59,033 nucleotides of DNA, from positions 1 through 59,033 of the forward strand of contig CAMHQP010000005.1 of assembly GCA_946187555.1 (NCBI GenBank), given 5' to 3'. The DNA comes from an uncultured Bacteroidales bacterium (GTDB lineage Bacteria; Bacteroidota; Bacteroidia; Bacteroidales; Paludibacteraceae). The notes under the pieces are model-generated. The model was not told the origin of the DNA, did not search any database, and saw only the letters and a list, made by a program, of their open reading frames with translations. The translations under genes and the position numbers were made by a program. Shown one piece after another: positions 3,316-57,673 of the stretch (the first letter of the stretch is position 1; each line of letters opens with the position of its first letter).

Positions 3316-4497
3316 TTAATCGGGGACACCGTCATCCCATCCGATACCTTTGTACTTGTCAAGATCCCACTCTTCCTCTACCTCGTTAAGATAGATCGTC
3401 TCTTCATTTACCATTTGGTCATTTTCCATTTGGTCATTTTCTTTTTCAATGACAGTCACATCAATCGGCGCATGGGATATCTCGATGACTTGGTTCTGCT
3501 CTTTATTGAGCTCTGTCCAGAGGGCATCTTTGAGTTCATCGATACCCATACCTGCTACGGAGGAGATGAACACGATCGGCAAGTCGAGTTTCTGCAGTTT
3601 CTTGGAGGCTTGCAGTTTCTTAAGTTCTTTCTCGTCAATAGCGTCTATCTTCGTGATAGCCAGGATACGTGCTTTGGTGAGCAGTTCCGGATTATATTGC
3701 TCCAACTCATTGAGCAGAATCTTGTACTCTTTAACGATATCATCGCTCGTAGCCGGAACCATAAAGAGTAGAACGGCATTGCGCTCGATATGGCGAAGGA
3801 ACCGCAAACCGAGTCCTTTACCCTCACTCGCACCCTCAATGATACCCGGGATATCGGCCATACAGAACGACCGACCGTCACGATAGGAGACGATGCCGAG
3901 TTGCGGCGTCAGGGTAGTAAACGGATAGTCTGCTATCTCCGGTTTGGCAGCAGAGACGACACTCAACAGTGTTGATTTGCCGGCATTGGGGAAGCCTACG
4001 AGACCTACATCAGCCAGCACTTTGAGTTGCATGATCACCGTACGTTCCTGCGCGGGTTCACCGGGTTGCGCATAGCGCGGCGCTTGGTTGGTAGCCGTAC
4101 GGAAATGCCAGTTACCTAAGCCTCCGCGACCACCTTTGAGCAACACCACGCGCTCGTTATGCTCCTTCACCTCACAGATGAATTCACCCGTTTCACCGTC
4201 ATAAACGACCGTTCCGCAAGGCACTTCGATGATCTTATCCTCACCGTCCTTACCGAACGAACGACTCTGTCCACCCTTACCGCCATCGGTCGCCATAATA
4301 TGCTTCTGATACTTCAGATGGAGCAAAGTCCAGAGATTACGATTACCGCGTAATATAATCGACCCGCCTTTACCGCCGTCACCGCCGTCAGGTCCGCCTT
4401 TAGGCAGATACTTGGCACGATGAAGGTGCATACAACCTGCACCGCCCTTTCCGGAGCGGCAGTAAATCTTTACGTAGTCGATGAAATTAGCGGCCAT
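3316..4497 (-). CDS. obgE: Obg-family GTPase, ribosome assembly
   Basis: GTPase that binds the 50S precursor and couples ribosome assembly to growth. The N-terminal glycine-rich Obg fold covers residues 1-158 (KGGPDGGDGGKGG). The G domain follows with G1 GFPNAGKST near residue 169, switch region DYPFTTLTP, G3 DIPGIIEG and G4 TKID. No OCT domain is present; the tail after about residue 330 is acidic and low-complexity. That tail contains a five-residue tandem repeat (ENDQMENDQM) encoded by the heptad repeat at 3404-3438. The start overlaps the end of adk by 11 nt, so the two are co-transcribed. Confidence 0.95.
   Translation of the reverse strand: MAANFIDYVKIYCRSGKGGAGCMHLHRAKYLPKGGPDGGDGGKGGSIILRGNRNLWTLLHLKYQKHIMATDGGKGGQSRSFGKDGEDKIIEVPCGTVVYDGETGEFICEVKEHNERVVLLKGGRGGLGNWHFRTATNQAPRYAQPGEPAQERTVIMQLKVLADVGLVGFPNAGKSTLLSVVSAAKPEIADYPFTTLTPQLGIVSYRDGRSFCMADIPGIIEGASEGKGLGLRFLRHIERNAVLLFMVPATSDDIVKEYKILLNELEQYNPELLTKARILAITKIDAIDEKELKKLQASKKLQKLDLPIVFISSVAGMGIDELKDALWTELNKEQNQVIEISHAPIDVTVIEKENDQMENDQMVNEETIYLNEVEEEWDLDKYKGIGWDDGVPD
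3404..3438. repeat. heptad repeat inside obgE
   Basis: Five degenerate 7-mers (TCATTTA, CCATTTG, GTCATTT, TCCATTT, GGTCATT) lie in frame in the obgE tail and encode the NDQM repeats. This belongs to the window-wide heptad family. Confidence 0.7.
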
Positions 4498-5062
4498 AAA
4501 TCTCTAAAATACGCATGATCTGCAAGAACACATCCGCCATCGTGTGGTTACCGTTAACAGCGAAGTAGTTTCCGTGATGCAGGTAATAATGCGCAATAGG
4601 TTCTGTTTGATTGTGATAAACGGCGATGCGGTGACGAATCGTATTGAGGTTATCGTCCGCACGACCGCTCACTTTTCCTCGTTCAATAAGACGTTGGATC
4701 AACAACTGCTCATCTACCATCAAATCGATCATGATAGCATCCATATTGTATTTCTTGAGCAGTTTGGTCAACGACTCCGCTTGCGCTACCGTACGGGGGT
4801 AACCGTCAAAGATGGTACCTTTGCAATCAGCAGGCAGACCTGCGATATAGTTTTCTATCACGCCGTACATCATTTCGTCGGGCACCAGATTGCCTTTCGA
4901 GATAAGTGCATCAATCTGCTTACCCAACTCAGAGCCTTTGGCTATCTCTGCACGAAGTACATCACCCGTAGACAGGTGTTGCAAGCCATATTTGTTTGCG
5001 ATGAAAGCCGACTGCGTACCTTTTCCGCTACCCGGCGCACCGCATAAGATGATATTTAACAT
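4487..5062 (-). CDS. adk: adenylate kinase
   Basis: Interconverts ATP + AMP and 2 ADP in the cytoplasm. P-loop GAPGSGKGTQ near residues 7-16, AMP-binding HLSTGDVLRAEI, and FDGYPRT. The LID region (RGKVSGRADDN) is short and lacks the four zinc cysteines, giving a short-form enzyme of 191 aa. It precedes obgE with an 11-nt overlap. The 75-base gap to HU holds the HU terminator, so the adk promoter is probably in the few bases beyond that hairpin; I could not place a clear TAnnTTTG box there. Confidence 0.97.
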   Translation of the reverse strand: MLNIILCGAPGSGKGTQSAFIANKYGLQHLSTGDVLRAEIAKGSELGKQIDALISKGNLVPDEMMYGVIENYIAGLPADCKGTIFDGYPRTVAQAESLTKLLKKYNMDAIMIDLMVDEQLLIQRLIERGKVSGRADDNLNTIRHRIAVYHNQTEPIAHYYLHHGNYFAVNGNHTMADVFLQIMRILEIYGR

Positions 5063-5087
5063 ACCTAATACCTTTTATGAACAGACA

Positions 5088-56088: not shown

Positions 56089-56092
56089 TGCT

Positions 56093-57673
56093 ATGAAAAA
56101 AAGCTCTACACAGAAAATTGCCATCATTGCAGGTGCAGGTCCTGCCGGTTTGACTGCGGCTTATGAATTGTTAAAGCAGACGGATATCAAGCCTATCGTT
56201 TGTGAGAAAACAGACGCTATCGGCGGTATTTCACAGACTGTACAACATCATGGCAATCGAATGGATATCGGTGGTCACCGCTTTTTCTCCAAGAGCGATA
56301 AAGTGATGAATTGGTGGCAAGAAGTGATGCCCTTACAAGCTAAGCCGTCAAAAGACGATATCTTACTGAACGAGACGGAGAAAGAGTTCGCCAAAACCGG
56401 TCCGGATCCGGAGAAAGAAGACCGAACAATGCTGTTGCGCCGCCGCGTGAGCCGTATCTTTTTCTTACGGAAATTCTTTGATTACCCAATCTCCATGAAG
56501 AAAGAGACCTTCCTGAATATGGGATTGGTTCGGATGATGAGAGCGGGTTTCGGATACCTATGGGCTTGCGTGCATAAATTACCGGAGACCTCGCTGGAAA
56601 ATTTCTATATCAACCGTTTTGGCCGACCACTCTACGAGATGTTCTTTGAGGACTACACAGCAAAAGTGTGGGGTGTTCATCCTTCCAAACTCGGAGCAGA
56701 CTGGGGTAGTCAGCGCGTGAAAGGACTGTCGGTGATTGCAGTGCTCAAGGATATGTGGCGCAAGAATTTCGGCAAGAAAGATAATGCGGAAGTAGAGACG
56801 TCTTTGATTGAGCAGTTCATCTATCCCAAATATGGTCCGGGACAGTTATGGGAAATCGTAGCCAAAGATATCGAGCAGATGGGAGGCGAGATACGAATGC
56901 AATCAGCTGTGACGGGGATAATGGTGAATGGTGAAGGGTTAATGGTGAATGGTGTGGAGTTGACACATGCGGATGGAACGAAGGAGCAAGTGGCATGCGA
57001 CTATTTCTTGAGCACTATGCCTATAAAAGATCTGATTCCGGCTCTGCAGGGTGTAGAAGTGTCACAAGAGGTGAAGCAAATAGCAGCCGAGTTGCCATAT
57101 CGGGATTTCATCACAGTCGGATTGCTGGTGAATAAGATGAAAATAAAGAACGAGACCAAACTGAAAACCTATGCCGAGCGTGTACCGGATACATGGATCT
57201 ATATCCAGGAGCGGGATGTGAAGATAGGTCGCTTGCAAGTGTTCAACAACTGGTCACCATACCTCGTGAAGGATTATGAACACACAATGTGGATTGGTCT
57301 TGAATATTTCTGCACGGAAGGTGATGAACTGTGGAATATGCCGTCGGATGACTTTATTAAGATGGCTAAGGGCGAGTTGGCAAAGATAGATATTATTGAC
57401 GAGAAAGATGTATTAGACGCTTGTCATGTGAAGATTCAAAAGGCCTATCCGGCTTATTACGGCAGTTATTATCAGTTGGATACAGTGCGGCAGTTCTTGG
57501 ATACTATTCCTAACCTGTATTGCTTGGGTCGTAACGGTCAACACCGTTATAATAATATGGATCACTCGATGATGACGGCATTTGAGACAGTAGAATCTAT
57601 TAAGATTGGAAATACAGATAAACGCTTTATTTGGAACGTTAACACGGAGACTGAATATCATGAAAGCAAATAA
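56093..57673 (+). CDS. FAD-dependent amine-oxidase-type oxidoreductase
   Basis: 526 aa. Rossmann FAD site IAIIAGAGPAGLTAAYELL; IGGISQTVQHHGNRMDIGGHRFFSKSDKV; a C-terminal FAD signature (NLYCLGRNGQHRYNNMDHSMMTAFETVE). Related to UDP-galactopyranose mutase and protoporphyrinogen-oxidase-like enzymes found in glycan loci; I cannot set the substrate. Residues about 277-288 (MVNGEGLMVNG) are encoded by a heptad array. The next gene starts inside its end (14-nt overlap). Confidence 0.88.
   Translation: MKKSSTQKIAIIAGAGPAGLTAAYELLKQTDIKPIVCEKTDAIGGISQTVQHHGNRMDIGGHRFFSKSDKVMNWWQEVMPLQAKPSKDDILLNETEKEFAKTGPDPEKEDRTMLLRRRVSRIFFLRKFFDYPISMKKETFLNMGLVRMMRAGFGYLWACVHKLPETSLENFYINRFGRPLYEMFFEDYTAKVWGVHPSKLGADWGSQRVKGLSVIAVLKDMWRKNFGKKDNAEVETSLIEQFIYPKYGPGQLWEIVAKDIEQMGGEIRMQSAVTGIMVNGEGLMVNGVELTHADGTKEQVACDYFLSTMPIKDLIPALQGVEVSQEVKQIAAELPYRDFITVGLLVNKMKIKNETKLKTYAERVPDTWIYIQERDVKIGRLQVFNNWSPYLVKDYEHTMWIGLEYFCTEGDELWNMPSDDFIKMAKGELAKIDIIDEKDVLDACHVKIQKAYPAYYGSYYQLDTVRQFLDTIPNLYCLGRNGQHRYNNMDHSMMTAFETVESIKIGNTDKRFIWNVNTETEYHESK
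56921..56955. repeat. heptad repeat inside FAD oxidoreductase gene
   Basis: Five 7-mers (ATGGTGA, ATGGTGA, AGGGTTA, ATGGTGA, ATGGTGT), in frame. They encode MVNGEGLMVNG, a self-repeating insertion. Confidence 0.85.

Follow-up and report, generated by a model that had tools for sequence, protein, structure and literature searches.

Heptamer arrays and the genes that carry them

The stretch of DNA analysed here (the window, 59,033 nucleotides of contig CAMHQP010000005.1 from an uncultured Bacteroidales bacterium of the Paludibacteraceae, GenBank assembly GCA_946187555.1) carries 14 short tandem arrays of heptanucleotides or related 15-bp units, which either span gene junctions or run in frame through protein genes (Table 1). 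All 14 loci named in a preliminary description of this DNA were recovered by Tandem Repeats Finder (TRF) and a simple period scan. Eleven pass the scan at period 7, and the remaining three are 15-bp (7 + 8) repeats found by TRF. The array near 16014, described earlier as resembling a 14-unit repeat, is in fact about five units long. Gene names in the window derive from family matches, some of which are weak. Translation agrees with the earlier view that arrays supply start or stop codons at junctions and otherwise lie in frame: the interiors of the ObgE, RluD-like, GldE/CNNM-like, Nif3-like, EamA-like and PRK07208-like genes and the region near the GldH start are affected, while the other arrays occupy junctions. 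In the RluD-like protein, the array peptide aligns as an insertion relative to E. coli RluD, placed just before the HRxDKDT stretch. Judged by its residues, the array-encoded stretch near the start of GldH probably forms the hydrophobic part of a lipoprotein signal peptide.

Table 1. Tandem arrays of the window, with the genes they touch and the residues they encode
Position	Strand	Array and location	Encoded residues	Evidence
3404..3441	-	15-bp (7+8) array, C-terminal part of obgE	ENDQMENDQMVNE (residues 353-365)	TRF, ObgE match, translation
7126..7162		Heptamer array, junction of porX stop and endonuclease/exonuclease/phosphatase-like gene (weak match)		Period scan, translation
9288..9317	-	15-bp array in frame, RluD-like pseudouridine synthase gene	NDQMVNDRIV (residues 140-149)	TRF, family match, translation
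9705..9734	-	Heptamer array supplying the RluD-like start codon and first residues	MTDDQLQITN	Period scan, translation
12442..12478	-	Array at smpB C-terminus and smpB-pgm junction	ends KMNKW*	TRF, period scan, family matches, translation
12929..12957	-	15-bp array, C-terminal part of GldE/CNNM-like gene, just upstream of smpB	VEGVKVEGVK (residues 401-410)	TRF, family match, translation
16014..16047	-	Heptamer array in frame, Nif3-like gene	IGVTDYRLLVTG (residues 117-128)	Period scan, family match, translation
17555..17586	+	Heptamer array in frame, EamA-family transporter gene	NHQSPISNLQS (residues 217-227)	Period scan, family match, translation
31471..31497	-	Heptamer array, gldH C-terminus / trmB junction		TRF, period scan, family match, translation
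31903..31932	-	Heptamer array in frame near gldH start	KVIGYWLLVIG (residues 4-14), then C	Period scan, family match, translation
34187..34212	-	Heptamer array, C-terminus of HIT-domain gene, supplies stop codon, adjoins holB gene		Period scan, family matches, translation
34635..34665	-	Heptamer array between acyltransferase-like gene and HIT-domain gene start		Period scan, family match, translation
47602..47631	+	Heptamer array, tsaE C-terminus (stop codon) and start of next gene (weak DUF3316 match)		Period scan, family matches, translation
56920..56954	+	Heptamer array in frame, flavoprotein-like PRK07208-family gene	IMVNGEGLMVNGV (residues 276-288)	Period scan, family match, translation

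Period 7 dominates the window, with 11 segments at a score of at least 9 compared with 0-7 for each other period between 4 and 30, and with three period-7 segments summed over ten Markov-shuffled versions of the window. The own-genome sample, consisting of the window and 20 further stretches (455,271 of 1,571,123 bases; the genome is about 71% complete), contains 54 period-7 segments scoring at least 12, followed by period 14 (28 segments), periods 9 and 11 (13 each) and period 8 (12). By this excess over other periods and over shuffled controls, the arrays belong with the heptamer simple sequence repeats of bacteria in general. No period-7 arrays were found in the 50 kb of E. coli K-12 scanned. 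The window units are arranged head to tail without spacers, and the exclusion of CRISPR in the preliminary description therefore stands, as unique spacers of fixed length are lacking.

Codon bias as the source of the arrays, already doubted earlier, was rejected because the arrays vanish upon codon shuffling. Coding sequences (CDS) were called by our own hexamer script, not by a standard gene-calling program. The 358 CDS of the own-genome sample hold 28 period-7 arrays, versus 0.4 after synonymous shuffling and none after codon-order shuffling (means of 5), and the window CDS alone hold four, versus 0.25 and 0.1, respectively (means of 20). Three congeners described below behave alike, with 15 arrays in 159 CDS (G003), 14 in 149 (G017) and 6 in 72 (G014); across all four genomes synonymous shuffling leaves 0.4-0.6 arrays and codon-order shuffling leaves none.

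Spread of the arrays among relatives

Relatives of PorX place the window in a genus of Paludibacteraceae known mostly from metagenome-assembled genomes (MAGs) of the ruminant gut. The comparison covered 80 named loci (3.7-21.6 kb each, 1,420,657 bases in total), five sampled congeners, and 20 other genomes represented by one stretch each, whereas word searches across the genus used 121 genomes of separate species. Loci and stretches are labelled L and genomes G, with G000 denoting the own genome. In the 80 loci period 7 is again the highest (193 segments), and period 11 gives 72 segments versus 0-39 for periods 8-10, 12 and 13. Period 7 also leads in G003, G017 and G014 (22, 26 and 25 segments), while in G011 8-mers (12) outnumber 7-mers (3), and G008 showed no period-7 arrays in 80 kb. 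Periods 8 and 11 form smaller peaks beside period 7. Sixteen genomes from other families of the order yielded two period-7 segments in 197 kb. Outside the genus, four successive TCAGNNN units occur in 55 of 148 Bacteroidota genomes, representing 33 of 83 genera, although the reversed control was positive in some as well; a Bacteroidales host is therefore no surprise, contrary to the preliminary description.

Several other features were encountered in the same DNA. A second family, of 11-bp tandem arrays, is present together with 8-bp arrays in the same genomes (L080 11870-11934; L094 13417-13468; L089 467-534; window 30001-30040). A 349-bp array of mixed words opens a G014 contig (L131 3-351), and the minus strand of the window contains an open reading frame of 2,633 codons at 20670-28571.

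Placement and orientation relative to genes

Placement was counted for 137 arrays in the samples of G000, G003, G017 and G014. Sixty arrays (44%) lie inside genes, 28 at C-terminal ends, 11 at N-terminal ends and 38 in intergenic DNA. As 79-89% of the sequence in these samples is coding, junctions are favoured even though 44% of the arrays are intragenic. Orientation differs between the two settings: inside genes the consensus word carries a stop codon only in the sense direction in 11 arrays and only in the antisense direction in 31, whereas the corresponding counts for arrays of known strand outside genes are 27 and 9 (Fisher p = 3e-5). The depletion of the stop-bearing orientation in gene interiors is a bias and not a rule; where an intragenic array has a sense stop in its consensus word, either individual units depart from that word or the gene call is faulty.

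Turnover of arrays at matched sites

Fourteen pairs of sister species, 91-98% identical over the aligned stretch, provided 57 sites with alignable flanks, after exclusion of four more whose flanks were poor. Some genomes enter several pairs, so part of the sites are not independent of one another. Between such sisters arrays are present, absent or differently spelled at the same site, with flanks aligning on both sides. Seven sites are identical, seven keep their words but differ by point or length changes, 12 pair a strong with a weak array, and eight were scored as having different words, although three of these belong to one TCAG family by eye. The remaining 23 pair a scored period-7 array with none: nine face a shorter gap and 14 face unrelated sequence of similar length, some of which consists of 8- or 15-bp arrays. 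Lengths differ between sister species in steps of 7, 14 and 21 bp, in line with the slippage suggested earlier and as is typical of heptamer simple repeats, but many other differences do not correspond to whole units.

The seed test used 42 array differences from 12 of the 14 sister pairs. A local seed at the sister site, i.e., an exact match of at least 7 bp to the array, was present in 11 differences, whereas in the other 31 the match was 6 bp or shorter (control mean, 4.7).

More distant comparisons show a similar turnover of array content. A scored 7- or 8-bp array is present at the 3' junction of porX in 14 of 79 relatives, in many different words, and absent from 65. Among the best 30 of 110 genomes with a match to a DUF1015 protein, ten carry a scored heptamer array in one loop, in about four word families (seven arrays belong to the AATTNAA family, and three further families have one each); seven share a common array-free loop, and the remainder have other sequence, some of it heptamer-like by eye. 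The same DUF1015 loop in L216 and L229 holds a different, longer in-frame repeat (MSAAKLLND...). G000 and G006 have nearly identical copies of it, and G053 and G059 related ones; it is perhaps another short dispersed in-frame element.

Words within and between genomes

An expectation-maximization alignment of units scored well above position-permuted controls, both in the own genome (1,141 versus 843-854) and in the relatives (4,130 versus 2,911-2,929). The leading words differ between genomes: GGTTACR and ATTGGTG types prevail in G000, ATTGGTG and others in G003, and AACTCAT in G014, while G017 has no leading word and TCAGNNN is found in L041 and L047. Each genome uses several word families. 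Three successive GGTTACN units match 41 times in the own genome and 0-95 times per genome across the genus, being present in 30 of 121 genomes and missing from 91, and the reversed control gives 0-3 matches. The pattern of four TCAGNNN units is more widespread, occurring in 85 of 121 genomes (0-303 matches), although in one genome its reversed control gives as many as 93. Changes between neighbouring units are over-dispersed (2.98 versus 0.85), and an invariant run of four bases occurs in 4 of 33 long arrays (0.5 expected), always of the TCAG/CTGA type.

Sharing of words between arrays was defined as a similarity of at least 0.8. Different sites within one genome share words in 40 of 430 pairs, compared with 460 of 20,926 pairs for different sites of genomes less than 80% identical, and the mean observed within genomes was never reached in 300 label permutations. 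The sharing of words within a genome, claimed from the window alone, thus lies above background. Different sites of sisters share words in 12 of 243 pairs.

Strings common to many genomes

The NDQMV array of the RluD loop is also present in L018 and, in a variant form, in L022, L032 and L056. The same array at the same site in orthologues, an outcome that the preliminary description had set against its own reading, is therefore partly seen for one family, NDQMV, in this loop; at other matched sites the arrays frequently vary from one species to the next. A 21-mer of the NDQMV family, taken from the array in the RluD-like gene of the window, occurs in 27 of 121 genus genomes, with up to 51 matches (G079).

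Another string, the 32-bp array AATTAAAAATTAAAAATGAAAAATTAAAAATT, lies in the RluD-like gene of L010, L039, L045 and L052, and in the first three it is more alike than the 350-bp flanks, which are 81-86% identical. Across the genus 13 of 121 genomes contain it, at 26 places spread over 18 genes and in the same frame at all 26, so that unrelated protein genes carry it in frame in the manner of the Rickettsia palindromic element, with no flank common to different genes around the copies. Another order of the same units occurs at ten places in six genomes, and a looser pattern detects the units AATTAAA, AATTCAA, AATTGAA and AATGAAA mixed in many other ways in the same genomes. In view of these mixtures and of the negative unit-order test given below, the idea that the 32-bp string is a discrete cassette with sharp ends was dropped. 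An in-frame TAA has to be lost from one unit in three of an AATTAAA array; frame selection alone therefore drives independent arrays to become alike.

Origin of the arrays

The reading we favour, with a probability of roughly 0.55, is that the arrays at junctions and in frame likely grow by slippage in genome-biased words and that units are likely copied from array to array, the products being filtered by selection. Units of 7 bp, beside 8-, 11- and 15-bp sub-forms, would slip locally, by which arrays would grow and persist; they would also be copied from array to array and so re-seed other sites. Short-homology template switching and short-patch illegitimate recombination are candidate routes for such copying between sites, in which single-stranded DNA from one array may anneal at a replication gap elsewhere and be copied in. 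Selection would then remove copies that break the reading frame, stop-free mixtures of words would survive inside genes, and the arrays would be tolerated rather than needed. A bolder and only tentative version of this reading sees a self-propagating, selfish vocabulary: an undiscovered copying process would write 7-bp words, throughout the genome, into junctions and in frame into loops of conserved enzymes. Each species would then overwrite the same loops in its own dialect, and exchange of whole words would take the place of point mutation in loop evolution.

Somewhat unlikely, in our judgement, is an origin by slippage and point mutation alone, in which each array starts from a chance 7-mer at its own site, expands and later decays, and shared words follow from composition, frame and the limited range of words tolerated. 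The steps of 7, 14 and 21 bp at sister sites and the 11 differences with a local seed are what it predicts, and heptamers are reported to outnumber other long simple repeats in most of the prokaryote genomes studied (Mrazek 2007, described in PMC4679880). On our argument, slippage alone explains neither the 31 of 42 differences without a seed nor genome-biased words such as GGTTACN, so frequent in the own genome and missing from three quarters of the genus with a nearly silent reversed control; moreover, single 7-bp steps inside a gene would be expected to break the frame. A short-patch horizontal transfer, in which arrays pass between species by recombination of very short DNA at matching sites with conserved codons of the flanks as anchors, is unlikely. 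It would account for the identical 32-bp array in four RluD loops, three of them with clearly diverged flanks, and for word sharing at the same site of distant genomes (39 of 421 pairs) well above that at their other sites (460 of 20,926). The 32-bp string is, however, scattered over 18 genes of 13 genomes in which other unit orders are common, and given shared words and frame selection the same string can be assembled by chance.

Several findings weigh against the copying of units that we favour. Words are shared at the same site of distant genomes as often as within one genome (39/421 and 40/430), and copying within a genome alone therefore does not explain the sharing; both the genome and the site thus contribute to the word dictionary. 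Runs of shared unit order between loci number 18 in 3,090 pairs at a length of at least 21 bp, compared with 16.7 after permuting units, and 132 compared with 116 at a length of at least 14 bp. Unit order is thus at the level of the controls and the copying of blocks is not demonstrated, although the arrays are short and the test is weak; copy-and-paste, one of the two routes suggested in the preliminary description, is likewise not demonstrated for whole arrays. Alleles per position are not over-dispersed (0.53 versus 0.49), and as allele counts overall fit the null, a layout of conserved core and hypervariable spacer was also discarded. Array density changes 22 times on the PorX tree, versus 24.3 in shuffles (108 of 500 as low), i.e., no phylogenetic clustering of array richness is seen. 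The seed test lets the sister state stand in for the ancestor, and that state may itself be derived. Finally, the search for RVT_1 in the 121 genus genomes and a proximity test of nuclease genes yielded no responsible enzyme.

The latter result bears most directly on a dedicated trans-acting enzyme that would write words from its own template, e.g., a telomerase-like reverse transcriptase. The genome-biased words and the absence of local seeds could be explained in this way, but the presence of several word families per genome in mixed unit order does not fit, and RVT_1 reverse transcriptases, found in 29 of 121 genomes and not in the own genome (about 71% complete), were rejected as agents. 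This origin is very improbable. Insertions adjoining arrays were observed in L041 (4625-5090) and L047 (17408-18755); they carry nuclease-like genes whose products are presumably GxxExxY and YhcG/DUF1016 proteins. Genes of these two kinds lie within 150 bp of an array in 0 of 2 and 1 of 6 cases (random, 0.31 and 0.33), and with no general association across loci nuclease genes were set aside as agents, too. Improbable, if less so than a dedicated enzyme, is a selected regulatory device, in which junction arrays are stop-start ladders for termination and re-initiation. The ladder would arise because three copies of a stop-bearing 7-mer close every frame, with NTGA or TAAATG available for a new start. 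Several window arrays do supply start or stop codons, the NDQMV 15-mer reads TAA-ATG ACC AAA TGG TAA-ATG at several junctions as stop-start units, and translational control has been proposed for the TAACTGA repeats (MacGregor 2015, PMC4679880). Against this, 60 of the 137 arrays lie inside genes, the stop orientation of intergenic arrays of known strand is only weakly biased (10 sense-only, 6 antisense-only), and the porX 3' junction lacks a scored array in most relatives. An artefact of codon bias or metagenome assembly is hardly credible. Nearly all named relatives are MAGs or uncultured, and arrays are found at 11 of 125 contig ends (from a list entered by hand) versus 259 of 7,563 interior windows, which may mean that long arrays interrupt assemblies; yet codon-shuffled controls lose the arrays, seven of 57 sister sites are identical in separate assemblies, and flanks align on both sides.

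Comparison with known repeats

For decades heptamer repeats have turned up in scattered bacteria, with no consensus on their mechanism. Direct repeats of TAACTGA occur in Beggiatoaceae, cyanobacteria and five Bacteroidetes (MacGregor 2015, PMC4679880). Like the present arrays they are heptamers, many of them near starts and stops, and their stop-bearing orientation is found only at the ends of open reading frames with the reverse orientation inside, a rule of which the bias reported here is a weaker form; their mobility was considered, with no mechanism evident in that account (PMC4679880). They differ in being one fixed word, mostly intergenic, whose near-miss words are rarely repeated (PMC4679880), while here many degenerate words are used, differing from genome to genome, and 60 of 137 arrays are intragenic. 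TAACTGA doublets number none in the window, one in the own-genome sample and none in the 80 relatives.

The G-rich heptamers of Xanthomonas (GGGAATC) and Nostoc (GGGGA(C/T)T) resemble our arrays in being degenerate, genome-wide and variable between close relatives, and they are generally not found with mobile elements in the data presented (Rehm 2015, PMC4692102). Unlike ours they form quadruplexes, 11% and 7% are intragenic in two Xanthomonas genomes and 68% intergenic in Nostoc, and two Xanthomonas keep the repeat at 83% of sites (PMC4692102), whereas here the words at one site change. Doublets of GGGAATC or GGGGAYT were absent from the window, the own-genome sample and the 80 relatives. The short tandemly repeated repetitive (STRR) sequences of heterocystous cyanobacteria, with the words CCCCAAT and CCCCAGT, are likewise short tandem repeats dispersed in the genome, and the likeness to cyanobacterial heptamers suggested in the preliminary description holds in kind; no doublets of these two words were found in the sequences searched.

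In the P6b loop of the Nostoc trnL intron a seven-nucleotide repeat is gained or lost, and one site has been repeatedly overwritten by another repeat class, which was explained as replacement of the region (PMC4476775). That case concerns one RNA stem-loop, and ours many gene junctions and gene interiors. Rickettsia palindromic elements are similarly placed in frame in unrelated protein-coding genes, but they are about 150 bp long and encode a conserved peptide (PMC10969869); the present arrays fall short of this size, being mostly about 20-60 bp, with period 7 and differing peptides.

A limited search of paper listings returned no description that we recognised of heptamer arrays overwriting protein loops. 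The kind of array is already known and stands beside TAACTGA, GGGAATC and the Nostoc trnL repeats, and its many-word, often intragenic and word-swapping form is the new part. The arrays show how repeat DNA can overwrite, in frame, stretches of conserved enzymes, among them the RluD-like synthase and the DUF1015 protein. In sister genomes of this genus the codons around an array site change little even where the arrays themselves differ, which allows the birth and loss of arrays and the exchange of words to be read directly. If units are indeed copied from one locus to another, a general short-patch process of copying in bacteria could be measured.

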